A DNA stretch of 41,004 nt from Thermodesulfobacteriota bacterium. GTDB taxonomy: Bacteria; Desulfobacterota; Dissulfuribacteria; Dissulfuribacterales; QOAL01. The translations under genes were made by a program, and so were the position numbers. Location of the stretch: positions 1 to 41,004 of the forward strand of contig JAADCZ010000017.1 of assembly GCA_013154175.1 (NCBI GenBank). Reading direction: 5' to 3'. Within the stretch, counting starts at the first letter, position 1. Each line of letters starts with the position of its first letter. Below, one piece after another: positions 1,932 to 24,542 of this stretch. The notes below the pieces were generated by a model that saw only the letters and a program-made list of their open reading frames with translations, was not told the origin of the DNA and searched no databases.

Positions 1932-1943
1932 TTTAACTACCTC

Positions 1944-5509: not shown

Positions 5510-5536
5510 CTCCCCGCTCCTTTTCAAATTTTTTTT

Positions 5537-5561
5537 CCAAATGGGATCGATTTCCCTTTGG
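5537..5561. repeat. Imperfect inverted repeat just upstream of qmoA
   Basis: CCAAATGGGA (5537-5546) pairs with TCCCTTTGG (5553-5561) with one bulged base. It lies about 27 bases before the qmoA start, next to an A/T tract. It may fold in the qmoA leader RNA or bind a protein; the function is not known. Confidence 0.5.
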
Positions 5562-5577
5562 CAAGTAGCTCACGGCC

Positions 5578-5593
5578 TTGAATTTAAATTCAA
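5578..5593. promoter_or_regulatory. 16-bp perfect palindrome between aprA and qmoA
   Basis: TTGAATTTAAATTCAA is a perfect palindrome between the aprA terminator and qmoA, about 70 bases before the qmoA start. A dimeric regulator could bind here. I cannot name the regulator, and no clean -35/-10 pair is visible beside it. Confidence 0.5.
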
Positions 5594-5611
5594 CCCCGTC
5601 AGCCACCTGTA

Positions 5612-5649
5612 TTTAAAAAAATGCCAGGCACCGCCTTAACGGTGCCTGG
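5612..5649 (-). terminator. Rho-independent terminator downstream of aprA
   Basis: A perfect 10-bp stem CCAGGCACCG / CGGTGCCTGG (5624-5633 with 5640-5649) with a 6-base loop is followed on the minus strand by CA and seven T. It should end or attenuate the sat-aprBA transcript before qmoABC. Confidence 0.85.
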
Positions 5650-5675
5650 ACAGTTATACTAATTTCCAGGTCGTT

Positions 5676-5693
5676 TGCCAATATTTATTGGCA
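5676..5693. repeat. Short inverted repeat after the aprA stop
   Basis: TGCCAAT / ATTGGCA with a 4-base ATTT loop lies 7 bases past the aprA stop codon. It lacks a T run on the minus strand, so it is more likely a 3'-end stabilising or processing hairpin, or chance, than a terminator. Confidence 0.4.
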
Positions 5694-5700
5694 TCCGATT

Positions 5701-7689: not shown

Positions 7690-7745
7690 TTTTTATTCCT
7701 CCTTGCTAAAAATTTTTGTGTTTAAGTTCAAATTAGCCCGTAAAA

Positions 7746-8195
7746 TTAATCGAAGTCGGATGGCTTGCAGGTAGCCCTTGAGCTATCTGCAGTCTCTGTG
7801 AAAAGAAGCTCGTTGTCGAGCTGATCTGCACCAGGTGATGGCTTTCCATCATAGGGCTTGATTGAACCTTCAGGAGTTGTCCTGATGGGGAACTTAAAGC
7901 GCTTCATGTTTCCATTCCTGAACTTGATGGTCCACATGATGGAGTCGGTACCACGCATGGGCTGTACGTAACCACCCATGGGGCAGATGTCAGCATAGTG
8001 ACGCACTTCAATTGCACCCTGAGGGCAGATCTTTACACAGGAGTAGCACTCCCAGCACTGATCTGGTTCCTGGTTGTAGGCCCTCATCTCATCGGGATTC
8101 AGGACCATCAGGTCATTGGGGCAGATGTACATACAAGCTGTTTTCTCCCCACCTTTGCAACCATCACACTTTTCTGGGTTGACAAAGCTTGGCAT
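7746..8195 (-). CDS. aprB: APS reductase beta (iron-sulfur) subunit
   Basis: Ferredoxin-like electron-transfer subunit that forms a heterodimer with AprA (149 residues from the chosen start). Cysteines 10, 13, 21, 25 and 47, 50, 53, 57 bind two [4Fe-4S] clusters. A C-terminal extension that wraps around AprA in known structures follows. The open frame extends to 8231, but those extra codons contain the AGGAGGT ribosome site; the ATG at 8193-8195 lies 6 bases after it and gives the family-typical MPSFVNPEKCDGC start. Expressed with sat and aprA. Confidence 0.97.
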   Translation of the reverse strand: MPSFVNPEKCDGCKGGEKTACMYICPNDLMVLNPDEMRAYNQEPDQCWECYSCVKICPQGAIEVRHYADICPMGGYVQPMRGTDSIMWTIKFRNGNMKRFKFPIRTTPEGSIKPYDGKPSPGADQLDNELLFTETADSSRATCKPSDFD

Positions 8196-8235
8196 TTTAA
8201 TACCTCCTACTTTTTTTATTTTCGTCCACAATCGT

Positions 8236-8254
8236 GGGCGGGGGCTGCCCGCCC
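8236..8254. repeat. GC-rich hairpin in the sat-aprB spacer
   Basis: GGGCGGG (8236-8242) pairs with CCCGCCC (8248-8254). The T run follows it on the plus strand, not on the coding strand, so it does not look like a terminator for sat. A second small dyad CCAC/GTGG lies beside it. It may be an mRNA processing or stability element in the aprB leader. Confidence 0.5.
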
Positions 8255-8268
8255 TTTTTCATGATAAA

Positions 8269-9534
8269 TTATTTGAGGTCTTCGAAGGCACCCTTCTTAA
8301 TCTTGACCTTACGTGCCTCTGGATCAGAGTAGTATTCGGCCAAAATTTTCAGAACCTCAGGCCTTGAGAATTCAGGTGGAACCTCGTCGATCTTTCCTTC
8401 ACTCATGAGACGGCGGAACTTAGTACCGGAAACAACAACGCGGTCTTCTTTGTCGTGGGGGCAGGTCTTGAGTGAGGCCATTCCTCCACACTTGTGGCAC
8501 CAGAATGTCCAGTCAATCTTCAGTGGCTGAAGCTCGAGTGCTCCATCCCACAGCTTGTCATAGATTTCCTGGGCCTCAAACAGACCGTAGAAGTCGCCCA
8601 CACCTGCGTGGTCCCTACCGATGATGAGATGAGAACATCCAAAGTTCTGACGGAAGACACCATGGAGCAGTGCTTCCTTAGGTCCACCGTAACGCATCTC
8701 GAGAGGATAAACACCGAGAACGGTCCTCTCCATGTTGTAGTAGTTGTCCAAGAGTGCCTTGTAGCACTTCATTCTCCACTCGCCAGGAATGTCGCCAGGT
8801 TTCAGCTTACCAACGAGAGCGTGGATGAATACACCATCCAAAACTTCCTGAGCAATCTTGGTGAGGTATTCATGGGAGCGGTGGATGGGGTTCCTTGTCT
8901 GGAATGCTGCAACTGTGCTCCAACCCCTATCCTCAAAAATCTTCCTGGAAACTTCTGGATGCATATAGGCTTCGCCGTATTTCTGTACGAAGTCCTTCTC
9001 AGAAAGGGCCTTTATTGGTCCACCAACGTAGTACTTTCCGGAGTTGAGCACCTGCTGTACACCAGGATGCTCTTTCTCAGCTACCTCCCAGAACCTCTCG
9101 GAATCTGGACCAGAACCCTTGAAACAAAGCTCGCACTCCTTCCTCTTGTCAGGCTCCCAAATCTCCTCAATCTTCATGGTTGCCATGAGCTCGCCCGTGT
9201 CACTGTCATGCAGAGCGACCTCATCGCCCTCTTTGATCTCTTTCCTGACATCTTCGTCAACTGCTAGAGTCACAGGCAGAGGCCACATGGTACCGGGGTC
9301 AACCTGGCGGAGCTTCATCTCCTCTACACAACCATCATAGTCGTCCTTACACATAAAACCATTTAGCGGTGTAAAGGCGCCCATGCCGAGCATCAGGATG
9401 TCACCTGACTCCCTAGAAGAAATATTGATTTTCTTCATTGCTTTTGCGCGGCCTACTTCGTCCTCCCTCTCAGCGCCTTTTAAAAGAAGAGGCATAAGCT
9501 TCTTCTGCGAACCATGTGGATTAACTAAAGCCAT
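8269..9534 (-). CDS. sat: ATP sulfurylase (sulfate adenylyltransferase), dissimilatory type
   Basis: Makes APS and pyrophosphate from sulfate and ATP, the activation step before APS reductase; in sulfur oxidation or disproportionation it can run backwards to yield ATP. The 421-residue protein has the nucleotide-binding QTRNPIHRSH at 212-221 and GRDHAG at 306-311. A CHKC...C set (Cys 346, 349, 358) suggests a zinc site, as in other single-domain Sat proteins. There is no APS-kinase domain, as expected for the dissimilatory form. The ATG follows AAAGGAG by 10 bases. First gene of the sat-aprBA-qmoABC cluster, behind a strong promoter. Confidence 0.98.
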   Translation of the reverse strand: MALVNPHGSQKKLMPLLLKGAEREDEVGRAKAMKKINISSRESGDILMLGMGAFTPLNGFMCKDDYDGCVEEMKLRQVDPGTMWPLPVTLAVDEDVRKEIKEGDEVALHDSDTGELMATMKIEEIWEPDKRKECELCFKGSGPDSERFWEVAEKEHPGVQQVLNSGKYYVGGPIKALSEKDFVQKYGEAYMHPEVSRKIFEDRGWSTVAAFQTRNPIHRSHEYLTKIAQEVLDGVFIHALVGKLKPGDIPGEWRMKCYKALLDNYYNMERTVLGVYPLEMRYGGPKEALLHGVFRQNFGCSHLIIGRDHAGVGDFYGLFEAQEIYDKLWDGALELQPLKIDWTFWCHKCGGMASLKTCPHDKEDRVVVSGTKFRRLMSEGKIDEVPPEFSRPEVLKILAEYYSDPEARKVKIKKGAFEDLK

Positions 9535-10315: not shown

Positions 10316-11080
10316 TTAGTCGATTTCAAACCTTACTATTTTAGTAAAACTTTCCGGAACCAGTGAAGCGCCTCCTACCAAGGCACCGTCAACATCGTCG
10401 AGGGCCATTATCTGCCCAACATTATCCGGCTTGACCGAGCCACCATACAATATTCTTAAGTTTTGTGCAATATCTTCTCCTGCAAGTTGTGAAATCTCTT
10501 GCCTAACAAGGGCATGGGCCTCCTGAATCTGGTCGGTTGATGCGGTTTTCCCAGTCCCAATGGCCCAAACTGGCTCATAGGCTACGGCTACCATAGAAAA
10601 ATCATCTTTACTGAGCCCTTTCAACCCTTCCTCGACCTGGGACTTCAAAACCTCCGATGTCTTGCCAGACTCGCGCTCATCCAAGGTCTCGCCAATGCAA
10701 TAAATGGGTGACAGGCCATGTCTCACAGCGGACAACACCTTCTTGTTGATGGTCTGGCCATCTTCTTGGAAAATGTGCCTTCTTTCTGAATGTCCTAAAA
10801 TAACCCTTTTCACCCCGACATCCCTGAGCATCAGAGGGGACACCTCCCCTGTATATGCCCCTTGCTCTTCATGAAACATATTTTGGGCACAGGCATCAAC
10901 ATTGGAACCAGCAAGTATTTCAGCCATCTTCATAAGGCACACAAAACTCGGGGCAAGAACGATATCCCTATCGGTCACATCTGAGACCAAAGGCAGGAAC
11001 CTTTGGAGATAATCCTCCATCTCAGATACTGTCTTGTGCATCTTCCAATTTGCCGCCATGAGCGGCCGTCTCTTTGTCAT
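10316..11080 (-). CDS. tpiA: Triosephosphate isomerase
   Basis: Interconverts dihydroxyacetone phosphate and glyceraldehyde 3-phosphate. The 254-residue TIM barrel has the active-site Asn11 and Lys13 in AANWKMH, His97 in GHSERRH, Glu169 in AYEPVWAIGTGKT, and the phosphate-binding YGGSV. It starts 9 bases after the pgk stop with GAGGTG as ribosome site. With pgk and the two gap genes it forms a lower-glycolysis/gluconeogenesis block. Confidence 0.98.
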   Translation of the reverse strand: MTKRRPLMAANWKMHKTVSEMEDYLQRFLPLVSDVTDRDIVLAPSFVCLMKMAEILAGSNVDACAQNMFHEEQGAYTGEVSPLMLRDVGVKRVILGHSERRHIFQEDGQTINKKVLSAVRHGLSPIYCIGETLDERESGKTSEVLKSQVEEGLKGLSKDDFSMVAVAYEPVWAIGTGKTASTDQIQEAHALVRQEISQLAGEDIAQNLRILYGGSVKPDNVGQIMALDDVDGALVGGASLVPESFTKIVRFEID

Positions 11081-11089
11081 GATATCACC

Positions 11090-12283
11090 TCACGACCCTG
11101 CACATTTTTCCAGTGCTACTATGCCGGGCAGCTCCTTTCCCTCAAGCAAGGTCAAAAATGCTCCACCGCCAGTTGAGATATAGGATACATTGTCGCTCTC
11201 GCCGGCAACCTTGACCGCCGCCCCAGTATCCCCGCCACCAACTATGGACAGTGCAGGGCTGGAGCCCACTGCCCTGGCTATAGCTACGGTACCCCTATCA
11301 AAGGGCTCTATTTCAAAGGCACCCATTGGACCATTCCAAACGATGGTCTGGGCCTTTTTTATCTCATCTACGAACATATCCACAGTCTTGGGGCCAATGT
11401 CCAGCACCATCATGTCGTCTGGAATCTTGTCCACTGGCACCTCGTCATAGGGCACGTCGGGGCCAAGCTCTGGCGCCACCACTACGTCCACCGGAAGCAA
11501 AAGGGTAGTGGACGAATTTTCGGCCATTTTCATTATATCCTTGGCCGTTTCCACAAGGTCTGGTTCAACCAAGGATTTGCCAACCGAATACCCCTTGGCC
11601 AGCAAAAAGGTATTGGCCATGGCCCCCCCAATTATCAGGCTGTCCACCTTGGGGAGTATATTTTGTATGGCACCCAATTTACTGGAAACCTTTGCTCCGC
11701 CCAGGATAGCAAGAAGGGGGCGCACAGGATCTGCCATAGCCTTGTGAAAATAGGTTATCTCATTCTTCATGAGAAAACCTGCGCCGCACACCTTTGTCCT
11801 TTCAGGGACTCCCACCACTGATGCATGGGCCCTGTGGGAAACCGCAAAGGCATCATTTACGTAAACCTCACAAAGACTGGCCAGGGCATCGGCAAAGCTT
11901 GGATCATTCTCCGTCTCCCCCTTGTAGAAACGGAGATTTTCAAGCATGAGCACCTCGCCGTCCTGGAGGGCGTTTGCCATCTTTTCTACTTCATAACCAA
12001 TACAATCTGGCGCCATCTCGACCTTTTGTTCCAGAAGCAACCCCAGTCTCTCTGCAACAGGGGCCAGACTGAGTTCTGGCACCCTTTTTCCTTTGGGCCG
12101 CCCTAGATGCGACGCCACAATGAGTCTGGCACCATTTTCGAGTGCATTCCTTATGGTGGGCAGTGCCGCCTTAATTCGGTTGTCATCGGTTATCTCAAGT
12201 TTTTCATTGAGAGGCACATTAAAGTCCACACGTAAAAATACCTTCTTGCCTGCGAGCTCAAGCTCGTCAATAAACCTAATCAT
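11090..12283 (-). CDS. pgk: Phosphoglycerate kinase
   Basis: Transfers phosphate between 1,3-bisphosphoglycerate and ADP. The 397-residue protein shows the N-terminal substrate motif VFLRVDFNVPL, the SHLGRPKG block, LAILGGAKVSSK, and the C-terminal nucleotide site GGGDTGAAV with STGGGAFLTLLEG. It lies 17 bases after the gap-like gene and 9 before tpiA, so it is clearly in one operon with them. Confidence 0.98.
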   Translation of the reverse strand: MIRFIDELELAGKKVFLRVDFNVPLNEKLEITDDNRIKAALPTIRNALENGARLIVASHLGRPKGKRVPELSLAPVAERLGLLLEQKVEMAPDCIGYEVEKMANALQDGEVLMLENLRFYKGETENDPSFADALASLCEVYVNDAFAVSHRAHASVVGVPERTKVCGAGFLMKNEITYFHKAMADPVRPLLAILGGAKVSSKLGAIQNILPKVDSLIIGGAMANTFLLAKGYSVGKSLVEPDLVETAKDIMKMAENSSTTLLLPVDVVVAPELGPDVPYDEVPVDKIPDDMMVLDIGPKTVDMFVDEIKKAQTIVWNGPMGAFEIEPFDRGTVAIARAVGSSPALSIVGGGDTGAAVKVAGESDNVSYISTGGGAFLTLLEGKELPGIVALEKCAGS

Positions 12284-12300: not shown

Positions 12301-13551
12301 TTAAAGCATAGAGTCTGCAATAGACGTCGTTCTCTCCCCAAGCATGTTGGTATAGCTGCCTAACTCGTTATCATACCAACCGTATATCACGACCTGGGTG
12401 ACAGGAACGCTTATGGTGTCACATATTATCTGGGTTGACTCGTCGAGCCCGCGACATGCCTTTCTAGGATCAATCTGGATGGCTGCCGTCCTGGTATGAG
12501 TCTCAGTACCCTCTATTATCGCTGCTGCAGCAGGCATTCCGATTATATCGGCTGATACGTGCTGGGTGTCTGTGTATATGAGGCGGCCTTTCATGGGCCC
12601 TTCTGCCGCATTCTTGTAGATAGAGTTTATCACATTTCTGTTGATTGGATCTTCAAGGCTTTCATCATGAATGGTCAACACGAGCACTATGAGAGAGCCA
12701 GTGTTTGTTGGAATGCGCACAGATTCGGCAATGAAGCCAATATTTTTCATCTCGGGTATAACCAGAGACAGTGCCTTTGCCGCCCCAGTTGTTGTGAGGA
12801 TGATGTTGTTGAAGATGGAACGATTCTTTCTGAGATCTGTAGCGCCTGCCTTGGGAAGCCTGTCAAGTACCTGCTGACTGCCTGTGGCTGCGTGAACCGT
12901 CACCATGGATGCAGAAAGGATTCGATTGGCGCCAAAATGGTCGAGAATGGGCTTGACCATATAGGAAAGACAGGTCGTCGTACATGAGGCTGCTGAGATA
13001 AGTTTGTGTTTTTCCGGGATATAATCATCTTCATTTATACCCATCACAGTGGTTACAGCATCCTCGGGCATCTCTGCTGCCTTGTCCTTTATCTTAAAGG
13101 GTGCAGACAAGATCACCTTTTCTGCCCCTGCCTCGAGATGCCCCCTCAGACTGCCCCGCGGTTCATCTGGCGGAGCTGTGGGATCCCTGAAGACGCCTGT
13201 AGTATCCACAACCAGCCTGACATCGTGCTCAGCCCATTTGATGCCTCGAGGGTCACGGCTTTCGCGCAATATGGTCACAGGTACCCCATCGACTGTCATA
13301 CGACCTGTTTTTTCATCGAGATTTTCAATTACTCTGGGACACTTGTAACCGTAGAGATAGCTCCCGAGCCTGCCATAGGTGCTATCCATCTCTATTGAAT
13401 GGGCAATGTCAGCAAGCCCTTGACCTACCTGCCGGCCTATGTTGATTACTATTTCGGAAAAATCTTTCTTGCTGACGTGATACCATAAACTAAGCTTTCC
13501 TATTCTCCCAAGTCCATTTATCCCAAGTTTCATAGGGCGGGCTTCAGACAT
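12301..13551 (-). CDS. Divergent, long glyceraldehyde-3-phosphate dehydrogenase paralogue
   Basis: GAPDH family protein of 416 residues, about 80 longer than the classical enzyme upstream (17942-18949). The Rossmann start GINGLGRIGK is clear, and the catalytic Cys190 (ASCTTTC, where most have ASCTTNC) and His220 (VTVHAAT) are present. The aspartate that normally follows in the VND motif and favours NAD is absent; the aligned stretch is IVINIG at 34-39. Insertions occur around residues 96-108 and 122-135 (Pro/Arg-rich). The ATG at 13551 follows GGAGGT by 7 bases. The family is sure; cofactor and direction are open. By analogy to GapB-type enzymes it may prefer NADP, or serve a different direction or condition from the other copy. 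Confidence 0.88.
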   Translation of the reverse strand: MSEARPMKLGINGLGRIGKLSLWYHVSKKDFSEIVINIGRQVGQGLADIAHSIEMDSTYGRLGSYLYGYKCPRVIENLDEKTGRMTVDGVPVTILRESRDPRGIKWAEHDVRLVVDTTGVFRDPTAPPDEPRGSLRGHLEAGAEKVILSAPFKIKDKAAEMPEDAVTTVMGINEDDYIPEKHKLISAASCTTTCLSYMVKPILDHFGANRILSASMVTVHAATGSQQVLDRLPKAGATDLRKNRSIFNNIILTTTGAAKALSLVIPEMKNIGFIAESVRIPTNTGSLIVLVLTIHDESLEDPINRNVINSIYKNAAEGPMKGRLIYTDTQHVSADIIGMPAAAAIIEGTETHTRTAAIQIDPRKACRGLDESTQIICDTISVPVTQVVIYGWYDNELGSYTNMLGERTTSIADSML

Positions 13552-13657: not shown

Positions 13658-16600
13658 TCAGATAATGGAACTGTCCTCTTCCGTCCGTATTTCATGCTTG
13701 CCTGAATAAACAAAGCCTTTTCGCCCGTCAATACTAATATAATCTCCCGAGCGAATTGTGTGGCCATTTATTTCTGCCTTACCATCCAATTCATAAACCT
13801 TTAACTGCTCGCAGCCAACGACACACGTCTTATCCAACCTGAAGGCCACAATTGATGCATGGGATGTCTGCCCTCCCTTTGCCGTAAGAATCCCGTCTGC
13901 AGACGATATCTCTTTAATATCATCAGGAACCGTGTCCGATCGAATAAGAATGAGCTTTGTCTCAGGCTCTTGCTTCCTAATTCTCTCAATCTCCTCCAGG
14001 GTAAAAACGGCCTTGCCACTGAGGGCCCCGCCACTGACTCCAATTCCTCTGCCCAAACAGCTCCGTTCCAGCTCTGCCGTGGGAATGAAGACGGAAACCC
14101 GGGTACGTCTCTTGGTGACCATATCCCTGGTCTGAAGTATATACAGCTGCTCGGGCTTAGGGCCCTCAAAGGTAAACTCTATTTCCTGGGGTGTCCATTT
14201 CTTTTCAGAAATCAAATACTTGACCCATTTGAGAAGAGCGCCGTAAATCTCTGGAAATCTCTTCTCGAGGCTATCTTCCACGCTCAGGCCCAGCTCTTCA
14301 CTCTGCTCCATGGAGATGGGATTCGTTGCAACAAGTCCGCTAACAATATCCTCACCCTGGTTCCCGACTGAATAGTCGCCCCACAGGCTCACCCTGTCTA
14401 GCTTCTTATAAGGATTTGCCGTAAACAGAACCCCAGTTCCCGATTCATTGGAAAGATTTCCATAGGCCATGGCCTGAATTATCACAGCAGTGCCCCAGTG
14501 GTCGGAAATCTCCATAATCTCCCTGTAGGCCCTGGCCTTTTCAGAATTCCAGGAATTGAGCACCAACCTGATGGAAGTAAAAAGCTGTTCAAAAGGATCG
14601 TCTTCTATCACCAGGCCCTTGGCTATCACTGCGTCACGATATGCAAGGGCAAGCTCCTTCATCTGCTCGCCAGTAAACTGCCTCTTTTTTTCCACCTTGT
14701 ATTTTGCCTTATGGGCCTGCATAAGGGCTGTGAAAACCTCCCTTTCGAGCCCAAAGGACATTGCCCACGACTGGACAAACCTTCTGTAATTGTCCCAGGC
14801 AAACCATAGATTTCCATATTTCTTTGCTAGCCCTTCAGCAATCTCGAAGTTCATTCCAACATTGATCACTGTGGACATCATACCAGGCATCGAGATGGCT
14901 GCTCCACTCCTTACCGATAGCAGAAGGGGGTTAGAAGGGTCACCAAAACGCATGCCGGAGCGCTCTTCAATTTCCCGTATGCCCTCTCTGACCTGGCGTT
15001 TAAAGTTTTTGTACGCTCCCTGGAGCTTGTAGAACAGGGAATAATACCTGAAGACCTCTGTGGTTACGATAATCGCCGGCGGCACGGGAATCCCCGCCTG
15101 GGCAAGAAGCAGCAGGTTATAGCCCTTGTTGCCAAGTTGAATGAGGTTGCCTGTAACCTTATCTGGCTGATGAATGGAACAAAGATCCTGCTTCGGGTCG
15201 TAACTGAGAAGCATGTCCAGCTCCCTCGGGCTCAGATACTCCCTCTGGCTCGACAGGGCCTGGTAGAGCCTGGCAACAAAGTTGTCCAGATGCTGAAGGC
15301 CAAAGGTTGAAGAGATCAGCCCCCTTAAAAAGGCCTCTGAGACCTGGTGGACCACCTCTTGAATCGATGCGTCTGGCCTTACGGAATTTTTATATTTTGG
15401 AAGTAGCTTGTCTGGCCAAAGCTGTCTGATAATCTTGTTCAGGTTTTCCTCATGGGGGCTTAGATAATAGACATAGATCATGTCCTTTACGCCCTCGGAA
15501 AGCCCCTTCACAATGTCCAGATATTGGGTGAATGAAAAACGTCTGACCCCAAGGGATTTTTCAAGAAGTGTGAGATAGGTGGCAAATTTTTTGGAATAGA
15601 CTCCATTTAGCTGCACGGCCCGCCAAAGAAGCTTCAGGTGCCTCAAAAGGCTTACAAAGGTGGACCTTGTAATAAAGGGCACCTCAACCTCGGCGATTAG
15701 ACGCTCAAAAAAGAGATTTGCAAGATTTTCCAGGCGGAATGTGAGGCCCAGGGCATCGAACTTTCTTTCATGGTACTTCCCATACATGGACGGGATGTCA
15801 GCGGCGATGTGGCGCTTGTGATAGATGGATTCTTGAACCTCATACCTTTCCTTTGAAAGGATAATGTTTTTGAGCTCCTCTATCTCATCCAGGATGACCT
15901 TTAGTGCCTCCTCGTTGTCGTCTGAATCTATCACCTTGAGCACCTTGTCCATCCCTTCGAAGCCGAGCTTCTTGGCCTCTTCCAGATTGAACCGTATCTC
16001 CTGGACCCCAAGGTTGTACTTCATGTACTCTAGGCGGTACATCTTTATGAGAAGTTCCACCCGTCGCTTCTCATGAGGGGGGACGTCCTCCACCTCGTCT
16101 ATCAGCTGGCGAATCTCCTCCTCTGAGGAACTTAGAAACAGATGCACCTTCTTGGCAAAGGGCTCGAGGCCAAGGCGTGATGCAAGGTGGCGAATTATCT
16201 TGTGAACATGGTCCACATATGGCCCATAGGGGCTTATCTGCTTTAGAATTTCCGGCGGTAGAAAGGGCTCGAGGCCCTCTTTCTGCCTGCTGTACCAGAA
16301 GGAAAATATTGCCTCTATGAAGTCTACTATAAGGTTGTTGCTTTCAACATGACTCTGTTTTCTCAGGAAGTGAATTAGGATGTCTCGGCGCTTTGAAATC
16401 TCATCGAGCTCGGTTGAAACGTCCCGCAGGAGGCCCTCGGCGCCAATCTCGTTGAAATATACAGGGATGGATCTGCAAAACTCCTTTACCAGATTGTAGA
16501 TGGGCTCGATGTCACTGTTTAGGAGCTTTGTGATGTCACGCTGAAAAAGATCCGTATCCTTTATGCATGTTCCCCCAAGCTGCAGATTGATGGTGAGGGC

Positions 16601-17938
16601 AGAGAGCAAGGTGGAGCAGACCTTGGGCTTTTGACACACGAGATCCAGCCACGCCCTGATGTTTTGCAGATGAGCCGGGTTCGAAATCACGTGCCACTCT
16701 GTATCCACACCCTGGACACCAGGGGTCTGGAAACCAAAGGCGACAACCTCCTGGAGGAATAGCTCTATTAACCGCGTATTCTCCCTCTGGAGAATCTCTG
16801 TTCCAAGGGCGTTGATGCACTGAAGGGCAGTCCTCGGAAACTGGCCAATCTGCTGCTTCAAGAGGGCAAAGCTCTTGGGGATGATCTGTCTCAGTTCATC
16901 GAAGTCTGCTGTCTTTACCAGACATACAAGGTTCTTGTTGAGCTGACGAAGGACCTCTTCGTGTATGATATTAAGACCCTCCATCTCCACCATGTGAAAG
17001 AGGAAGAGGAGATAAATGGAAATACCGTCAACATATTTCCCCTTGTCCTTGTCAAAGGAAAGCCTGCAGGAAACCTGCCCCAGGGCCCGGGCAATATCCT
17101 TATACCTTTTTACCACGTCCACGTGGCCAGGCAGCTCCGCCAGGGCAAGCGCAGCCTCTCTGTAATTTTCCATTGCCTCTATCTGCCTCGTCTCTTCCAG
17201 CAGGACCTTGAAGGTCTTGTGGCTGACAGGCTCGAGCATCTGCATTATCCGTTCATAATCCTCCGGCTCTATCCAGAGTCCATACTGTTTGAGACTGGCC
17301 TTCAGCCATTTCTGGGGCCCATCCTGGCTCAACCAATACTCGTATGTGATGCGTCTGGTCTTTAAGAGGAGCCTCTTACACCACTTCCACAGTTCATGGT
17401 TGTCATCCAGATTTGCCAGGCGCCTAGAAAGATTCTTTACGAGCCGTGCAAGTGGATGAAAGCTGGTGGCAATTGCATAGGCAATGGTATCATCGACCTC
17501 GGACAACTCCTTGAACACATGGGTAAAGGCTGGTACCAGGGCTTCGAGGGTCTCCTGTTCCCCTGCCCTTACAATCTTTTCCATATAGGCCAGAAGCCCA
17601 TCGGCTGCCCGCTTCTTTTCCTTCTCCCTTGGAGCATCCTCGATGAGTTTCAAGAATGTCTCGAGCAGGACCTTGCATGCCTGTACCCCATATTCGGAAC
17701 GCACATATGTACTGAAGTTCTTCAGGGAAAAGGAACGCAGATCGTAAACCAGAGCGGCCCAGTTCTTATAGGGGTGATGAAGCTCGAAAAGTAGGTAGTC
17801 GGCCTGGCGCAACATGCCCTTGTAGCCTTCCACCGCCTTTCTGATGACCTCATATTTCTGTTCTATCTCTACCCTGTCAACCTGGGTTTCCTTCAGGTTC
17901 GTCTTCAGGGCCTTTGATTGGGCTATTATATCCGTCAT
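13658..17938 (-). CDS. Giant PPDK-like PEP/pyruvate-binding domain protein
   Basis: A 1426-residue protein. The C-terminal 500 residues look like the ATP-grasp and phosphohistidine parts of pyruvate phosphate dikinase. LGNKGYNLLLLAQAGIPVPP begins near residue 932; SVRSGAAISMPGMM is near 1008; NESGTGVLFTANP and GNQGEDIVSG follow; EQLYILQTR closes the ATP-grasp part. The mobile domain carries GGQTSHA with the probable phospho-His near residue 1359. No C-terminal PEP/pyruvate-binding TIM barrel follows; the protein stops soon after. Residues 1 to about 925 are predominantly helical-looking, charged, and not recognised by me. It starts 3 bases after the classical gap gene without a good ribosome site close by, so it probably relies on coupling. 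It is likely a dikinase/phosphotransferase with an unknown acceptor, or a regulator of the glycolytic enzymes; neither is shown. Confidence 0.8.
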   Translation of the reverse strand: MTDIIAQSKALKTNLKETQVDRVEIEQKYEVIRKAVEGYKGMLRQADYLLFELHHPYKNWAALVYDLRSFSLKNFSTYVRSEYGVQACKVLLETFLKLIEDAPREKEKKRAADGLLAYMEKIVRAGEQETLEALVPAFTHVFKELSEVDDTIAYAIATSFHPLARLVKNLSRRLANLDDNHELWKWCKRLLLKTRRITYEYWLSQDGPQKWLKASLKQYGLWIEPEDYERIMQMLEPVSHKTFKVLLEETRQIEAMENYREAALALAELPGHVDVVKRYKDIARALGQVSCRLSFDKDKGKYVDGISIYLLFLFHMVEMEGLNIIHEEVLRQLNKNLVCLVKTADFDELRQIIPKSFALLKQQIGQFPRTALQCINALGTEILQRENTRLIELFLQEVVAFGFQTPGVQGVDTEWHVISNPAHLQNIRAWLDLVCQKPKVCSTLLSALTINLQLGGTCIKDTDLFQRDITKLLNSDIEPIYNLVKEFCRSIPVYFNEIGAEGLLRDVSTELDEISKRRDILIHFLRKQSHVESNNLIVDFIEAIFSFWYSRQKEGLEPFLPPEILKQISPYGPYVDHVHKIIRHLASRLGLEPFAKKVHLFLSSSEEEIRQLIDEVEDVPPHEKRRVELLIKMYRLEYMKYNLGVQEIRFNLEEAKKLGFEGMDKVLKVIDSDDNEEALKVILDEIEELKNIILSKERYEVQESIYHKRHIAADIPSMYGKYHERKFDALGLTFRLENLANLFFERLIAEVEVPFITRSTFVSLLRHLKLLWRAVQLNGVYSKKFATYLTLLEKSLGVRRFSFTQYLDIVKGLSEGVKDMIYVYYLSPHEENLNKIIRQLWPDKLLPKYKNSVRPDASIQEVVHQVSEAFLRGLISSTFGLQHLDNFVARLYQALSSQREYLSPRELDMLLSYDPKQDLCSIHQPDKVTGNLIQLGNKGYNLLLLAQAGIPVPPAIIVTTEVFRYYSLFYKLQGAYKNFKRQVREGIREIEERSGMRFGDPSNPLLLSVRSGAAISMPGMMSTVINVGMNFEIAEGLAKKYGNLWFAWDNYRRFVQSWAMSFGLEREVFTALMQAHKAKYKVEKKRQFTGEQMKELALAYRDAVIAKGLVIEDDPFEQLFTSIRLVLNSWNSEKARAYREIMEISDHWGTAVIIQAMAYGNLSNESGTGVLFTANPYKKLDRVSLWGDYSVGNQGEDIVSGLVATNPISMEQSEELGLSVEDSLEKRFPEIYGALLKWVKYLISEKKWTPQEIEFTFEGPKPEQLYILQTRDMVTKRRTRVSVFIPTAELERSCLGRGIGVSGGALSGKAVFTLEEIERIRKQEPETKLILIRSDTVPDDIKEISSADGILTAKGGQTSHASIVAFRLDKTCVVGCEQLKVYELDGKAEINGHTIRSGDYISIDGRKGFVYSGKHEIRTEEDSSII

Positions 17939-17941
17939 GAC

Positions 17942-18979
<1,038 letters not shown>

Positions 18980-18993
18980 TTATTAGAAGTTAA

Positions 18994-19446
18994 TCACTGA
19001 GAAAGGGATTTCATCTCCATGACACAAAATTCTCCCTTGACCCTGCGGGGATTGCATACAAAAGAAAATCCGTGGCTCTGGTAAAAGGAGATTGCAAGAA
19101 AGTTATCCTTGTAAACATCCAGCACGACCTTTTTGGCCCCGCGTCGCCTTGCATAGGTCAGGAGACATTTCAGCATGAAGGAGCCAAGCCCTCGCCCCCA
19201 ATAGTCTTTGTCCACTGCAATATTCAACAAATAACACTCTTCAAAAAGAATACGAAAACAGATGTAGCCAACTATGCGCTCCCTATTGTCCTTGGGACAC
19301 AGACACCAGAACCTGGTTGATCTTTCCTGGGCCAGGTGGAATTCAAACCCCGCTGTCGGCCAGGGTCTAAACTGACACTCTTCTTCGATACGATGGATGG
19401 CTTCTATATCGGCAGGTTCTACCCTTCTGAGAATAAAACCGTGCAT
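18994..19446 (-). CDS. rimI: GNAT-family N-acetyltransferase, RimI-like
   Basis: About 150 residues with a complete GNAT fold. An N-terminal FILRRVEPADIEAIHRIE strand-helix is followed by LLNIAVDKDYWGRGLGSFML, which contains the acetyl-CoA loop (Q/R-x-x-G-x-G/A class). The C-terminal DNFLAISFYQSHGF is typical of RimI, which acetylates the N-terminus of ribosomal protein S18. The frame continues to a TTG at 19461; neither candidate has a clear ribosome site, and I chose the ATG at 19444-19446 because it gives the usual distance to the first strand. The acceptor of the acetyl group could also be a small molecule. Confidence 0.78.
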   Translation of the reverse strand: MHGFILRRVEPADIEAIHRIEEECQFRPWPTAGFEFHLAQERSTRFWCLCPKDNRERIVGYICFRILFEECYLLNIAVDKDYWGRGLGSFMLKCLLTYARRRGAKKVVLDVYKDNFLAISFYQSHGFSFVCNPRRVKGEFCVMEMKSLSQ

Positions 19447-19483
19447 AAGAAGGTGTTTCAAATGGAAGAAGAAAAAAATCTAC

Positions 19484-19882
19484 CTAACGGTTGAGAATCT
19501 GGGTAGCCTGATTGATGCTTTTTCGGGCATATTCCACAATTGACTGTGCAGCCTCTGCCAATGTCATGGACTCCCTGCACTGGGACAGCCTTATGAGCAT
19601 GGGCAGATTGACACCCGTTATGACCTCCACCTTGCCTTCCTCCAAAAAGCTGAGGCTCATGTTGGCAGGTGTTCCGCCAAACATGTCTGTGAGTATGAGG
19701 ATGCCGTCACCTGTATCCACCTGTTTTATGGCCTTCTTTATGGCCTGCTTCATTTCCTCAACACTTCTGGAAGGGTCCACGGTCAAGGCAACCACATTTT
19801 CCTGGTCTCCAACAATAAAACCTGTGGTCTGAACCAGTTCCTGGGCTAGGTTTCCATGGGCGGCCACCACAACTCCAATCAT
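19484..19882 (-). CDS. Mannose-type PTS EIIA domain protein
   Basis: A 132-residue stand-alone EIIA of the mannose class. The phosphorylation site is His9 in VVAAHGN; LILTDMFGGTPANMS and the ITGVNLPMLI block are conserved for the family. No EIIB/C/D permease genes are near. It sits directly behind rapZ and ptsN, where E. coli has the HPr paralogue gene npr. A regulatory role in a sugar-free phosphorelay is therefore more likely than sugar transport. Confidence 0.88.
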   Translation of the reverse strand: MIGVVVAAHGNLAQELVQTTGFIVGDQENVVALTVDPSRSVEEMKQAIKKAIKQVDTGDGILILTDMFGGTPANMSLSFLEEGKVEVITGVNLPMLIRLSQCRESMTLAEAAQSIVEYARKSINQATQILNR

Positions 19883-19885
19883 GTA

Positions 19886-20770
19886 TCATCCCTCTCTGTC
19901 CAAATCTCGATGGGTGACAATAACCTCTTCACCCCTCTGTGTAAACATGTCTCCCAACCAGCGGGCAATTGCAACACTCCGATGTCGTCCTCCTGTACAC
20001 CCCACACCCACCACGAGATAGACCTTGCCCTCAGCGTGGTACTGGGGGATGAGAAAGCCGAAAAGGGACTCGAGGTGTTTCAAAAATTCCTTGGTCTGCT
20101 CCTTGTCGTGCACATATCGATACACCTTATCATCGAGGCCGCTAAGACCCCTGAGCTCTGGAACGAAATAAGGATTTGGAAGAAAACGAACGTCTAACAC
20201 CAGGCTGGCATCAGCCGGAACTCCATATTTGAACCCGAAGGAAATGACATGTATGAGGGGTTTGGTCAGATCCTCTCTGTAGGAGTACATGTCCAGGACG
20301 ATTTGCCTCAGCTGGTGAACATTCCTGTTGGATGTATCAATATAGTTGTCTGCATACTCCCTCAGGCCACGAAGCCTGCGCCGTTCTTCTGCAATGGCCT
20401 GAAAGATGTCCCCCTTTGACTGGAGGGGATGTTTCCTGCGGGTCTGACTGAAACGCTGAACCAGCACATTGTCTGCAGCGTCCAGGAACAAAACCTCGAG
20501 ATGAAACCCCTTGGATTTCACTTGGGAAAAGATGGATTCATACTTATCGAGAAACCCCTTCTCCCTAACGTCCATTACAAGGGCCACCCGAGTTGGAATT
20601 TCAGTGCTCTTCTCGGTAAGGGACAAAAACTCTGGAAGAAGGGCAATGGGCAGGTTATCCACACAGTAGTAGCCCATATCCTCGAAGGCCCGTAGAGCAG
20701 TGCTCTTTCCCGAGCCAGACATTCCCGTGATTATAACTGTTTGTATGTTTCTCGACTGGTGCTGTGTCAA
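19886..20770 (-). CDS. rapZ: RapZ/YvcJ-type RNase adapter, nucleotide-binding protein
   Basis: A 294-residue P-loop protein with Walker A GMSGSGKST at 16-24, the RQTRRKHPL-like basic stretch, and the C-terminal signature GVGCTGGRHRSV. In E. coli RapZ binds GlmY/GlmZ small RNAs and controls GlmS levels; in other bacteria the homologue's role is less clear. The frame opens with TTG, overlapping the ptsN stop by four bases (TTGA), without a good ribosome site, which suggests translational coupling. Order ptsN-rapZ matches E. coli. Confidence 0.93.
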   Translation of the reverse strand: MTQHQSRNIQTVIITGMSGSGKSTALRAFEDMGYYCVDNLPIALLPEFLSLTEKSTEIPTRVALVMDVREKGFLDKYESIFSQVKSKGFHLEVLFLDAADNVLVQRFSQTRRKHPLQSKGDIFQAIAEERRRLRGLREYADNYIDTSNRNVHQLRQIVLDMYSYREDLTKPLIHVISFGFKYGVPADASLVLDVRFLPNPYFVPELRGLSGLDDKVYRYVHDKEQTKEFLKHLESLFGFLIPQYHAEGKVYLVVGVGCTGGRHRSVAIARWLGDMFTQRGEEVIVTHRDLDREG

Positions 20771-21243
20771 GCTAGAACACCGTAAGACCTATTTTCAGCT
20801 GCTTGTATCATCTGGAAAATCTCCATGGGATCCCTTGCACCAGATAATCTCTTTATCAGCTCTCTGTCTTTTAGAAGTCTAGCTATCTTGGCAAGGAGCC
20901 CCAGATAGCTCGTAGTGGCCTCTTCAGGCGCCAAGAGGAGAAATATCACATATACGGGCTTTCCATCCAGGGAGTTGAAGGGAACACCTTCCGGGCTTAT
21001 GCCCGCTACCACCAGCAATTCATCGAGCCCCACAATTTTCGCATGGGGAATGGCTATGCCCCCACCAATGGCCGTCGTACCCAAGGCTTCCCTTTCCTCG
21101 ATTACCCTGAAGATCTCCTCTTCGGGCAGGTCGGCCACACATGTGGAGACCTTCCTTGCCAAGGCCCTGATAACCTCGGTCTTGGAGGCCCCCTCCAGGG
21201 GAAAAATTATGCACTCATGCCTGATATATTTTACTATTCGCAC
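20767..21243 (-). CDS. ptsN: PTS IIA-like nitrogen regulatory protein
   Basis: EIIA-Ntr family protein of 158 residues with the phosphorylatable His67 in GGGIAIPHAK. The fructose/mannitol-type EIIA fold blocks (EREALGTT, LLAPEEATTSYLGLLAKIARLL) are clear. It starts with GTG; a GGAG lies 9 bases upstream at the end of hpf. It stands between hpf and rapZ as in E. coli. No EI-Ntr or NPr gene is inside the window, so the phosphate donor must be encoded elsewhere if the relay works. Confidence 0.94.
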   Translation of the reverse strand: MRIVKYIRHECIIFPLEGASKTEVIRALARKVSTCVADLPEEEIFRVIEEREALGTTAIGGGIAIPHAKIVGLDELLVVAGISPEGVPFNSLDGKPVYVIFLLLAPEEATTSYLGLLAKIARLLKDRELIKRLSGARDPMEIFQMIQAAENRSYGVLA

Positions 21244-21246
21244 TAC

Positions 21247-21774
21247 TTACGGCTCCAGAAGCCCGAGTCCGCCATCCTTTCTCCAGTAGATAACATTTAC
21301 GCGATTTGTTTCAGCATTGATAAAGGCCAAAAAGCCCTTTCCAGTTATTTGCAGCTGATCGGCTGCCTCTTCTATGGACATAGGCTTTGGGTTGATCTTC
21401 TGGATGGTGATGACCTGATCCTGATCCCCTTCTTCTGCCTCCTGGGCAGTGAGTGGCGGAGCAGGAGCCACATTCTGTGCACTGGTTCTCCGGCTCTTGA
21501 CCTTTTCCCTGAACTTCTTTAGTTGCCTTTCAATCTTATCGAGGACGAGATCTACGGCTGCCCTCAAATCGTCATGTTCCTGCTTGGCAGCAGCCCTGAT
21601 TCCATCACCGGTAATGACAACTTCGGCTGTCTTGCGAAACTTTTCAGCGGTGAGCACCACATTCACATTCATTGGTGAATCGCTGTATTTCTTCAGCCGT
21701 GAGAATCTATCTTGTATATAGTCTTTCAGTTCATTGGAATGCTCCATATGACGAAAGGTTACATTAATCTGCAT
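21247..21774 (-). CDS. hpf: Long-form ribosome hibernation promoting factor
   Basis: A 175-residue HPF/YfiA-family protein. The N-terminal S30AE domain (about 1-100: INVTFRHMEHSNELKDYI, HDDLRAAVDLVLDKIERQLKK) binds the 30S decoding region. A flexible Pro/Ala/Glu linker follows, and a C-terminal domain (KPMSIEEAADQLQ...FLAFINAET) typical of the long form makes 100S dimers without RMF. E. coli HPF at this locus is the short form, so the long form is a difference. GGAGG lies 10 bases before the ATG; it lies between rpoN and ptsN. Confidence 0.94.
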   Translation of the reverse strand: MQINVTFRHMEHSNELKDYIQDRFSRLKKYSDSPMNVNVVLTAEKFRKTAEVVITGDGIRAAAKQEHDDLRAAVDLVLDKIERQLKKFREKVKSRRTSAQNVAPAPPLTAQEAEEGDQDQVITIQKINPKPMSIEEAADQLQITGKGFLAFINAETNRVNVIYWRKDGGLGLLEP

Positions 21775-21807
21775 AAGGATTTTTCCTCCATTTTTTTATG
21801 CGACTCG

Positions 21808-23277
21808 TCAGATCTTGGGCCGCTTCCTACGACTTGAGGGCAAAATTCCCATAAGATCCCTGTACTTTGCCACTGTTCTTCTGGCAATCTTGATGTTGTC
21901 TTTGGCAAGGATCTCAACGATCTGTTTATCGCTAAAGGGTTTTGTGGGATCCTCATTTTCAATAAGCCGCCTGATGCGTTCCTTGACACTCTGGGCAGCC
22001 ACATCCTTGGATCCATCCTTCCTGGTAAGACCTGTGCTGAAGAAAAACTTGAGCTCGAATATCCCCTGAGGAGTATGGACATACTTGTTGCTTGTCACCC
22101 GGCTGATCGTGGATTCGTGCATGCCCACATCTTCAGCCACGTCCTTCAAGACCATTGGTTTCAAATAGGCGATGCCCTTGTCCAAAAACTCCCGCTGGAA
22201 CTTCACTATACTCTGGGTGACCTTGTATATGGTCTTCTTCCTTTGATGGATGCTCTTTATTAGCCACAAGGCCGATTTCATCTTCTCCTGGATGAATTCC
22301 TTGGCATCTTGTGGCACATCACCATTCTTGGCTGCATCCTTATAGACGGGATTGATGCGAAGATTTGGCAGATCTTCCTCGTTGAGGGCCACGACATATT
22401 CGTCGCCCACCTTGTAGACGTAGATGTCTGGCACTATGTACTGGACTTCTTCAGAGGAATAGGCACGCCCTGGCTTTGGCTCCAGGGACTTTATGACCTC
22501 AATTGCCTTGACCACGTCCTCTGGCTTTCTGCCAGTTGCCTTGGCAATCTGCTGATAGTTGTGTAGCTCCACCTGATGCAGGTGTTTGGACACCAATTCC
22601 TTGACCAGAGGGTCCTCTATGCCAAGATGGTCTATTTGTATGAGAAGGCATTCCCTAAGGTCCCTGGCTGCAACGCCCACTGGGTCAAATTCCTGGACCT
22701 TCTTGAGCACGCGTTCCACATGCTCCACATCGGTGCCACTGTCTTCGGCTATTTCCTCCACAGTGGCCTTCAGGTATCCATCCTTGTCGAGGTTGCCTAT
22801 GATGAGGCTCGCAATCTTGCGATCCTCTTCGGACATATCTGACAACTGAAGCTGCCAGGTCAGATGATCCTTCAGATCGGACTTGGAGGCAACGATATTT
22901 TCGTAGTTGGGTACTTCCTTTTCCTCAAAGGAATATGAGGGCAGAGAACGCCTGTATTCGTCGTCCCATACCTCTTGCCAGTTGGTATCCTTGATGGCGT
23001 CCTTTTCCCAAGGTGTCTTCTCTGCCTCAGTTGCAGCAAGCCCTGGCACCGCTTCAGAATCAGCCCAATCCTCCTGGCCCTGTTCGTCACCCCGGGTGTT
23101 TTTTTCCAAGTCTGCAGTGGTTGCCTCTTCCAGGAGCGGGTTAGCCTCAAGCTCTTGGTTAATGGTTTCTATGAGCTCGAGACGCGATAGCTGAAGCAGC
23201 TTGATAGCCTGCTGCAGCTGAGGGGTCATAACGAGCTGCTGTGTAAGCTTGAGGTTCTGTTTCAGTTCAAGGGCCAT
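21808..23277 (-). CDS. rpoN: RNA polymerase sigma-54 factor
   Basis: A 489-residue sigma-54. Region I at the N-terminus is Gln/Leu-rich (LKQNLKLTQQLVMTPQLQQA), an acidic region II follows (about 50-110), then the core-binding part, a helix-turn-helix (MHESTISRVTSNKYVHTP), and the RpoN box ARRTVAKYR near the C-terminus that contacts the -24 element. It lies 3 bases after lptB, exactly as in E. coli lptB-rpoN-hpf. Confidence 0.97.
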   Translation of the reverse strand: MALELKQNLKLTQQLVMTPQLQQAIKLLQLSRLELIETINQELEANPLLEEATTADLEKNTRGDEQGQEDWADSEAVPGLAATEAEKTPWEKDAIKDTNWQEVWDDEYRRSLPSYSFEEKEVPNYENIVASKSDLKDHLTWQLQLSDMSEEDRKIASLIIGNLDKDGYLKATVEEIAEDSGTDVEHVERVLKKVQEFDPVGVAARDLRECLLIQIDHLGIEDPLVKELVSKHLHQVELHNYQQIAKATGRKPEDVVKAIEVIKSLEPKPGRAYSSEEVQYIVPDIYVYKVGDEYVVALNEEDLPNLRINPVYKDAAKNGDVPQDAKEFIQEKMKSALWLIKSIHQRKKTIYKVTQSIVKFQREFLDKGIAYLKPMVLKDVAEDVGMHESTISRVTSNKYVHTPQGIFELKFFFSTGLTRKDGSKDVAAQSVKERIRRLIENEDPTKPFSDKQIVEILAKDNIKIARRTVAKYRDLMGILPSSRRKRPKI

Positions 23278-23280
23278 AGT

Positions 23281-24012
23281 TTAAAGCGAAAATTCCTCTC
23301 CTAAATATATCTTTCTAGCTATTTCACTCGTGGCAATCTTCTCTGGACTGCCATACTCGATAACTTTTCCAGAACTTACAATATAAGCGCTGTCACACAC
23401 AGTCAAGGTTTCCCGGACGTTGTGATCCGACAGGAAGATTCCAATCCCCCTGCCTCTTAACTCCTTGATAATACCTTGAATATCTGCCACTGCCAAAGGA
23501 TCGACACCGGCAAAGGGCTCATCGAGAAGAACGAACTTTGGATCCGTGGCAAGGGCCCTGGCAACCTCCACTCTGCGCCTTTCCCCGCCAGATAGGGACT
23601 CTGCCTTCTGTTTCGCCAGGGATGTAAGACCCATATCCTCAAGTAGCTCCTCTACCCTTTCTTTTCTCTCCTTCTTGGGCAATCCCCTGTTCTCAAACAC
23701 TACCTCTATATTTTCAAAGACGGTCAGTTTTCTGAAAACAGAGGGCTCCTGGGGCAGATAGGTGATACCCATATTTGCTCTCTTGTGCATGGGCATATGA
23801 GTAATTTCCGTGTCGTCCAGAAAAACCTGCCCGCCATCGGGCCTTATGAGCCCGGCAATCATGTAGAATGTCGTTGTCTTGCCTGCCCCATTGGGCCCAA
23901 GTAGGCCGGTTATTGTGGAGCTTTTGAGAACCAGGCTCACGCCATCCACAACAGCTCGGCCCTTGTAGATCTTTTTGAGCTCCTTTGCCTCAAGACAGCT
24001 CTGGCCAGACAT
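23281..24012 (-). CDS. lptB: LPS export ABC transporter ATPase LptB
   Basis: A 243-residue ABC ATPase that powers lipopolysaccharide extraction by LptFG(C). Walker A is GPNGAGKTTT (39-48), the signature is LSGGERRR near 143, Walker B is FVLLDEP near 163, and the switch His is in LSDHNVRE. These blocks and the MGITYLPQEPSVFRKLTV motif are LptB-specific. It overlaps lptA by one base (TAATG). Confidence 0.96.
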   Translation of the reverse strand: MSGQSCLEAKELKKIYKGRAVVDGVSLVLKSSTITGLLGPNGAGKTTTFYMIAGLIRPDGGQVFLDDTEITHMPMHKRANMGITYLPQEPSVFRKLTVFENIEVVFENRGLPKKERKERVEELLEDMGLTSLAKQKAESLSGGERRRVEVARALATDPKFVLLDEPFAGVDPLAVADIQGIIKELRGRGIGIFLSDHNVRETLTVCDSAYIVSSGKVIEYGSPEKIATSEIARKIYLGEEFSL

Positions 24013-24542
24013 TAGTCACCTTCTGAAAATACAACGGCTTCAACCCTATCCTTGCCAGAGCTTTCAACAACGCTTCTGCTCTCATTCACATAGAGGACTA
24101 TCTTGTCCCCCTTGATGGTATTGGGGCCGTCCCAAACCTGTGCATTCTTCAAAAGAACTATCTTCTCTTGTGGTTTGTAATAGATGGCCTCCTTTGCCGT
24201 TGCCTTTCTGCGCCCCTGGACGATTTTCAGGTGACCCATGAAGACTATCTTCTTCAGCCGCCTCTTTTTCTTGTTATCGGCGGTTTTCTGCTGATCGTAA
24301 AAGACCTCCAGACGGTCGGCATAAATGGTAAGATTTCCCTTTTTGGCAACGACGTTGCCTGTGAAGACCACGGTACCCTTCTGGTCATAGGCCTCCATCT
24401 TGTCACTGCTGATTCGTATGGCCTGCGAAGGCTTCTTCTTGGCCTTTTTGACCTCCTTGCAGATGCCACTGGTGGCTCCAGTAAAGCAAAAAAGGACCAT
24501 CAATATCAGGAGCACCCTGACCGTTTCTCTAAATATTTTCAT
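24012..24542 (-). CDS. lptA: LPS transport periplasmic protein LptA
   Basis: A 176-residue OstA-type beta-jellyroll protein that bridges inner and outer membrane in LPS transport. It has a signal peptide (about 1-28, hydrophobic VLLILMVLFCFTGATSG). The fold is seen in KMEAYDQKGTVVFTGNVVAKKGNLTIYADRLEV-type strand pattern and the C-terminal IKGDKIVLYVNE. Placed between lptC and lptB as expected. Confidence 0.92.
   Translation of the reverse strand: MKIFRETVRVLLILMVLFCFTGATSGICKEVKKAKKKPSQAIRISSDKMEAYDQKGTVVFTGNVVAKKGNLTIYADRLEVFYDQQKTADNKKKRRLKKIVFMGHLKIVQGRRKATAKEAIYYKPQEKIVLLKNAQVWDGPNTIKGDKIVLYVNESRSVVESSGKDRVEAVVFSEGD

Follow-up and report, generated by a model that had tools for sequence, protein, structure and literature searches.

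What could a relative of pyruvate phosphate dikinase (PPDK) phosphorylate when it has no barrel to bind phosphoenolpyruvate (PEP) or pyruvate, and what could it contribute to a triose-phosphate operon? The question is raised by a 41,004-nucleotide stretch of a Thermodesulfobacteriota bacterium (contig JAADCZ010000017.1; hereafter, the window) that encodes a giant PPDK-derived protein of 1,426 residues, for which we use the working name DIK. As an earlier note on this DNA had stated, its neighbors are pgk, tpiA, and two gap genes; one of the latter encodes an ordinary GAPDH of 337 residues (gap337) and the other a divergent GAPDH of 416 residues (GAPDH-416). The overall explanation that we favor, with somewhat better than even confidence, is that DIK is an AMP-forming dikinase with a new N-terminal acceptor module and GAPDH-416 as its obligate partner. 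Comparisons of sequences and genomes make it likely that DIK has phosphotransferase activity and that its function is coupled to that of GAPDH-416. Any particular choice of acceptor is far more tentative.

A PPDK-type catalytic half joined to a new N-terminal region

The only Pfam families matched by DIK are PPDK_N (best stretch at residues 978–1215, E 2e-29) and PEP-utilizers (residues 1328–1408, E 6e-18), and residues 935–1421 align with residues 18–513 of Clostridium symbiosum PPDK (phmmer, E 4e-82). These searches agree with the initial description of a PPDK-type ATP-grasp and a phosphohistidine (PHis) domain with the motif GGQTSHA, arranged in PPDK order and with the barrel missing; no barrel family is matched in DIK, and the chain ends at residue 1426, directly after the PHis domain. 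Full-length homologs, mostly of 1,400–1,450 residues, share the same C-terminal end, and DIK is therefore not a truncation or an assembly artifact. In comparisons with NCBIfam models, DIK scores 382.9 bits against PPDK (TIGR01828), 87 bits against PEP synthase, and 27.2 bits against rifampin phosphotransferase (RPH; NF041857), which is below the PPDK equivalog cut-off of 843.45 bits and the RPH cut-off of 999 bits. The model for enzyme I of the phosphotransferase system (PTS; TIGR01417) matches the PHis domain only, and weakly (17 bits). By score, DIK is a PPDK derivative, and over the ATP-grasp it is ∼36–41% identical to proteins of PPDK size from its phylum. The earlier note likened it to glucan water dikinase and RPH, which holds for the reuse of modules but not otherwise, as DIK is closest to PPDK (383 vs. 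27 bits for RPH) and its domains are ordered differently.

Eight residues of the catalytic half (K938, R1010, R1052, R1053, E1254, Q1269, R1271, and H1360) are identical in all 147 DIK homologs aligned. Six of these correspond to catalytic residues of C. symbiosum PPDK, mapped by alignment and by eye: K22, R92, E323, Q335, R337, and H455 are equivalent to K938, R1010, E1254, Q1269, R1271, and H1360, respectively, the last being the predicted phosphorylated histidine.

The N-terminal two thirds had been reported to match nothing. This is upheld for curated families and solved structures, but not for uncharacterized proteins, since hundreds of genomes encode the region in conserved form. Residues 1–930 had no Pfam match in any of 30 family members tested, residues 1–925 of DIK matched no NCBIfam family, and a profile of the N-terminal region retrieved only designed helical proteins from among PDB sequences (E ≥ 0.2). 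Structure prediction, an approach suggested at the outset, yielded confident helical models with no PDB fold match. AlphaFold2 models residues 1–930 as almost all-helical (pLDDT ∼84) and residues 385–925, from 65 sequences, with a pLDDT of 87 and a pTM of 0.82; one beta hairpin is present at residues ∼702–723. Foldseek searches of the PDB with both models, run without a positive control, returned nothing at E ≤ 0.001, and TM-scores relative to the query were below 0.2. The structure of the 541-residue region 385–925 is thus predicted with confidence, yet no solved structure matches it.

The 925-residue block is not undifferentiated, as a conserved core at residues 386–745 lies between variable helical flanks. 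Across 147 sequences, near-invariant positions make up 19.4% of the core, similar to the ATP-grasp (22.6%) and the PHis domain (20.5%), versus 3.6% of residues 1–385 and 5% of residues 746–925. Motifs of the core include GAEGxLRDxST..DE, IHFLRKQSHVESN, and E.IY.KRH..IPSMYG.Y.E.KFDAL. Arg, Lys, His, Asp, and Glu are frequent among its invariant residues, many of which are charged; examples are R505, H523, R526, K527, H530, K708, R709, H710, E724, and K726. Because an active site that binds an anionic ligand would be expected to combine charged residues with invariance at the level of the catalytic domains, residues 386–745 probably hold the acceptor site, which lends support to the suggestion that the N-terminal part is an acceptor module. 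In two assemblies, the N-terminal region is split by a TAA stop or into two frames (G305:C9:32220-34941 and G109:C1:682950-685596).

DIK can be set apart from PPDK, RPH, glucan water dikinase, PTS enzyme I, and VadK, as the comparison with each fails in at least one tested defining feature. DIK has the ATP-grasp and PHis domain of PPDK (TIGR01828, PDB 1KBL) in the same order and with the catalytic residues kept, but is without the PEP/pyruvate barrel and has 925 additional N-terminal residues without a known fold. Neither the HPr-binding domain nor the PEP barrel of PTS enzyme I is matched in DIK, and the source genome has a separate enzyme I. Glucan water dikinase has its acceptor region N-terminal to the ATP-grasp, as proposed for DIK, has its His domain before the ATP-grasp, and carries carbohydrate-binding modules; in contrast, the His domain of DIK follows the ATP-grasp and no carbohydrate-binding module was found in 30 N-terminal regions. 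RPH and the two-component dikinase HpeHI also reuse the ATP-grasp and swiveling His domain with a new acceptor domain, but RPH is ordered as ATP-grasp, acceptor, and C-terminal His (PMC4844700, PMC12167813). The order in DIK, with its putative acceptor module first and then the ATP-grasp and His domain, matches neither that of RPH nor that of PPDK, and RPH was not returned by sequence or fold searches with the N-terminal module. VadK (Rv1127c) of mycobacteria is, like DIK, a PPDK derivative without a barrel; it consists of an ATP-grasp and PHis domain only (∼50 kDa) and has methylcitrate synthase and dehydratase as partners (PMC13400623). Both are proposed partners of central carbon enzymes, but VadK has no counterpart of the conserved 925-residue region, its partners are not GAPDHs, and it is from other organisms. 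The catalytic half of DIK is of a known kind. For the proposed acceptor module, the domain order, and the obligate partnership with a GAPDH, we found no earlier description.

Co-occurrence of DIK with one GAPDH subtype

In the genomes sampled, DIK and GAPDH-416 are always present together. Among 296 sampled genomes of one phylum, Desulfobacterota, 91 have a strong match to DIK and one more has a weak and distant match; GAPDH-416 is present in all 91 and in none of the 205 others. The GAPDH-416 class is cleanly separated, with its weakest member at 425 bits and the best-scoring GAPDH outside it at 158 bits. The associated Fisher test (p 9e-77) treats genomes as independent, and phylogeny was controlled for only by a check of mixed families: presence of DIK varies in at least six (f12, f20, f21, f43, f58, and f63), and in each of these GAPDH-416 is present or absent alongside it. 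The link to triose-phosphate metabolism, first proposed from gene adjacency in one genome, is stronger for this association with a single GAPDH subtype.

A survey of homolog neighborhoods, which had also been suggested, located the two genes next to each other in 70 of the 91 genomes. In some lineages (L180–L182, L201, and L202), GAPDH-416 is opposite in strand to the neighboring DIK, and more than one inherited operon therefore holds the pair together. Adjacency of DIK to a GAPDH also persists in distant families and for a DIK paralog of 43% identity. This paralog, in family f2, is beside a GAPDH-416 (65%), and the nearest relatives of both come from a single other lineage (L163, L169, and L197). 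The simplest reading of these relationships is that f2 acquired the pair as a unit. Two DIK paralogs were observed in several genomes of this family (G041, G039, G029, G035, G044, G019, G043, G045, and G038), and nine of 10 genomes tested have a single copy of GAPDH-416, with G038 having two. At L057, an f2 locus of the first paralog, this paralog keeps gap337 and pgk and has no GAPDH-416 beside it, while the second paralog is next to one. Distance matrices are not by themselves evidence for the pairing, because that of DIK correlates as well with gap337 (0.89) as with GAPDH-416 (0.88).

GAPDH-416 keeps the catalytic Cys and His and scores below the cut-offs of all NCBIfam GAPDH models. Where gap337 has ND, it has NxGR in each of the 30 sequences that were aligned. 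Replacement of the NAD-type ND motif suggests that GAPDH-416 uses NADP rather than NAD. Two genomes have further copies in Calvin-cycle operons (G023, L199:1980-5724; G027, L198:3669-8500) that include genes for the RuBisCO large subunit and phosphoribulokinase and, in G027 only, a glpX-type FBPase. Because of these copies and the NADP-type motif, GAPDH-416 is most likely a reductive, biosynthetic enzyme, either gluconeogenic or of Calvin type. Plant GapA/GapB and cyanobacterial Gap2, which are NADP-dependent reductive GAPDHs, share with it the fold family, the Cys/His pair, and loss of the NAD-type Asp, but GAPDH-416 is ∼80 residues longer and has insertions.

What DIK may phosphorylate

In the reaction that we propose, ATP, with Pi as in PPDK, would phosphorylate H1360 of DIK and yield AMP and PPi. 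The PHis domain would then swing to the core at residues 386–745 and transfer the phosphoryl group to an acceptor bound there, in place of the PEP/pyruvate barrel. The single most likely acceptor, itself only a tentative choice, is the carboxylate of 3-phosphoglycerate. It would be converted on DIK to 1,3-bisphosphoglycerate and handed to GAPDH-416, for a reversible net reaction of ATP + Pi + 3-phosphoglycerate = AMP + PPi + 1,3-bisphosphoglycerate. DIK would be to phosphoglycerate kinase what PPDK is to pyruvate kinase, a reversible alternative that spends two bonds. The choice of 3-phosphoglycerate is made because the pair 1,3-bisphosphoglycerate/3-phosphoglycerate links gap337, GAPDH-416, and pgk, and because PPDK-like reversibility needs a high-energy product, for which 1,3-bisphosphoglycerate is energetic enough. 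The fuller proposal, a reversible 3-phosphoglycerate dikinase with a new acceptor fold that channels its product to a dedicated reductive GAPDH, is somewhat more doubtful than the acceptor alone. If true, it would give Desulfobacterota a second and energetically distinct lane between 3-phosphoglycerate and glyceraldehyde-3-phosphate. Many members of the phylum produce AMP and PPi in bulk via sulfate activation.

Several points weigh against this account of DIK. We found no biochemical data for any full-length homolog, the NADP specificity of GAPDH-416 is read from a motif only, and the co-occurrence statistic is inflated by common descent. In 21 of the 91 genomes, the assemblies have the two genes apart; some of these cases are at contig ends, and in G312, a single contig, the genes flank the sequence origin, but in others, such as G059 and G211, they are truly distant. 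To bind a small ligand, 925 residues make a large helical module, and its flank looks like helical repeats, which are often protein-binding. Moreover, with pgk in place and in most cases adjacent, another enzyme acting on 3-phosphoglycerate would be redundant.

The repeat-like flank is among the reasons to consider that DIK is instead a regulatory kinase, which we judge at present to be equally likely as, and no firmer than, 3-phosphoglycerate as the acceptor. DIK would bind and phosphorylate GAPDH-416, or bind it in its phospho-form, and switch the triose-phosphate node between glycolytic and gluconeogenic modes according to ATP/AMP/PPi/Pi status, much as proposed for VadK and enzymes of the methylcitrate cycle. 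It is consistent with this that DIK strictly accompanies a single enzyme subtype and not a whole pathway, as are the helical, repeat-like N-terminal flank, the placement of DIK between GAPDHs with ND (NAD-type) and NxGR (NADP-type) motifs, and the precedent of VadK, which autophosphorylates on His and contacts metabolic enzymes (PMC13400623). Conservation, however, is highest in the compact and charged core rather than in the flank, and neither a phosphosite nor a docking motif was identified in GAPDH-416. A regulatory role is also at odds with what is known of other dikinases, since with the exception of VadK and PTS enzyme I they act mostly on small molecules or polymers. Less probable than either is that the product of DIK is a different small molecule that feeds GAPDH-416, for example another carboxylate reduced as its acyl phosphate. 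The acceptor core is new, and the insertions and changed cofactor motif of GAPDH-416 mean that its own substrate may differ, but its copies in Calvin-cycle operons and the proximity of pgk-tpiA favor ordinary chemistry with glyceraldehyde-3-phosphate.

The remaining explanations are much less probable. A glucan or glycogen dikinase, like the plant glucan water dikinase, is suggested by a glycogen/starch synthase gene (glgA) just upstream of gap337-DIK in 27 of 80 loci. Only a subset of loci has this context, whereas the association with GAPDH-416 is universal in the sample; none of the 30 N-terminal regions has a carbohydrate-binding module, and the catalytic homology is to PPDK; we regard such a role as improbable. 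Slightly more improbable still is that DIK takes the place of PTS enzyme I, using ATP to charge HPr and the regulatory proteins encoded upstream (EIIA-Ntr, EIIA-Man, and RapZ). EIIA and rapZ genes are near DIK in the window and 15 of 19 genomes without enzyme I have DIK, but this neighborhood is missing at many other DIK loci. We rejected the substitution because the source genome itself and 76 of the 91 genomes with DIK have a match to enzyme I. The missing barrel could also mark DIK as a non-catalytic relic or a truncated PPDK, but this is very improbable given that the catalytic residues examined are invariant or nearly so in 147 homologs, that hundreds of homologs have the same ends where read, and that half of the genomes with DIK also keep a strong PPDK match. 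Replacement of PPDK by DIK was likewise rejected, since the strong PPDK matches, in 50 of the 91 genomes, form no pattern of exclusion.

An active dikinase coupled to GAPDH-416 remains our preferred explanation. The shared occurrence of the two proteins suggests that central sugar metabolism includes an uncharacterized transfer of phosphate. Whether the answer is a new acceptor fold and reaction at the triose-phosphate node or control of GAPDH by phosphohistidine, models of central carbon metabolism in these organisms would need to change, and the strict pairing with one subtype makes the question tractable with two purified proteins.

Genomic context and distribution of DIK

Genes in the window are arranged on the same strand in the order gap337, DIK, GAPDH-416, pgk, tpiA, and secG (table 1). 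The ATG start codon of DIK is 3 nucleotides past the stop of gap337, the end of which has a Shine-Dalgarno-like GGAG, and the gene for GAPDH-416 is ∼106 nucleotides downstream of DIK with its own GGAGG. Many GAPDH-416 genes in other genomes also adjoin pgk-tpiA.

Table 1. Coordinates in the window of DIK, its predicted segments, and neighboring genes.
Feature	Position	Strand	Basis
DIK, giant PPDK-derived phosphotransferase (predicted), 1,426 aa	13658..17938	-	Open reading frame; full-length homologs across phylum
DIK residues 1-385, N-terminal flank, all-helical and variable, perhaps for docking	16784..17938	-	AlphaFold2; 3.6% invariant
DIK residues 386-745, conserved core with beta hairpin, proposed acceptor site	15704..16783	-	19.4% invariant; AlphaFold2
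DIK residues 746-925, helical segment linking core to ATP-grasp	15164..15703	-	AlphaFold2, alignment
DIK residues 932-1285, PPDK-type ATP-grasp	14084..15145	-	Pfam, NCBIfam, phmmer, 147-sequence alignment
DIK residues 1290-1421, swiveling phosphohistidine domain, GGQTSHA	13676..14071	-	Pfam, phmmer, alignment
H1360 codon, predicted phosphorylated His (= PPDK H455)	13859..13861	-	phmmer; invariant in 147/147
GAPDH-416, divergent type I GAPDH with insertions, catalytic Cys/His, NxGR; DIK partner	12301..13551	-	
gap337, ordinary type I GAPDH, ND motif (NAD type), directly upstream of DIK	17942..18955	-	
pgk, phosphoglycerate kinase	11090..12283	-	Annotation, synteny
tpiA, triose-phosphate isomerase	10316..11080	-	Annotation, synteny

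Many sulfate reducers and related bacteria, cable bacteria among them, encode this large conserved protein in their triose-phosphate operon. At least 553 candidate stretches with DIK homologs were found in GTDB genomes. In the best 80 of the 553, which we examined, DIK is nearly always full length. Judged by title, these are mostly Desulfobacterota (the former Deltaproteobacteria), chiefly Desulfobulbales, Thermodesulfobacteria, cable bacteria, Desulfocapsa, and unclassified Deltaproteobacteria, and a few bear only generic titles. Relatives are in nearly all sampled genomes of the source order. The collection of literature that was searched yielded no paper about this family. A distant homolog of 1,485 residues in G314:C33 (L203:3873-8330) is 26% identical over ∼1,000 residues and has the same architecture with altered motifs. 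Its genome lacks GAPDH-416, its locus adjoins a GAF/sigma-54 regulator, and it has no close relative in 197 genomes of the phylum. Proteins of this type possibly represent a second DIK subfamily.

Just downstream of the triose-phosphate operon is a sulfate-reduction cluster (645–9534; sat, an AprB-type subunit, an aprA match, QmoABC-like flavoproteins, and an Fe-S protein). A strict link of DIK to sulfate activation was rejected because aprA, while enriched, is not required, being in 66 of the 91 genomes with DIK and not in 25. Upstream are genes for a RimI-like GNAT protein, EIIA-Man, RapZ, EIIA-Ntr, and RpoN (18994–24542), and this regulatory cluster is linked to gap337-DIK through much of the source order as well as in Thermodesulfobacteria. 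The glycogen/starch synthase gene precedes gap337-DIK at L187:2027-9278 and 26 other loci of Desulfobulbales type; at those checked, GAPDH-416 is located elsewhere, with pgk-tpiA-secG. The window also encodes, at 32094–35747 on the reverse strand, a protein of 1,217 residues with a C-terminal YhdP (AsmA-like) match as its sole match.

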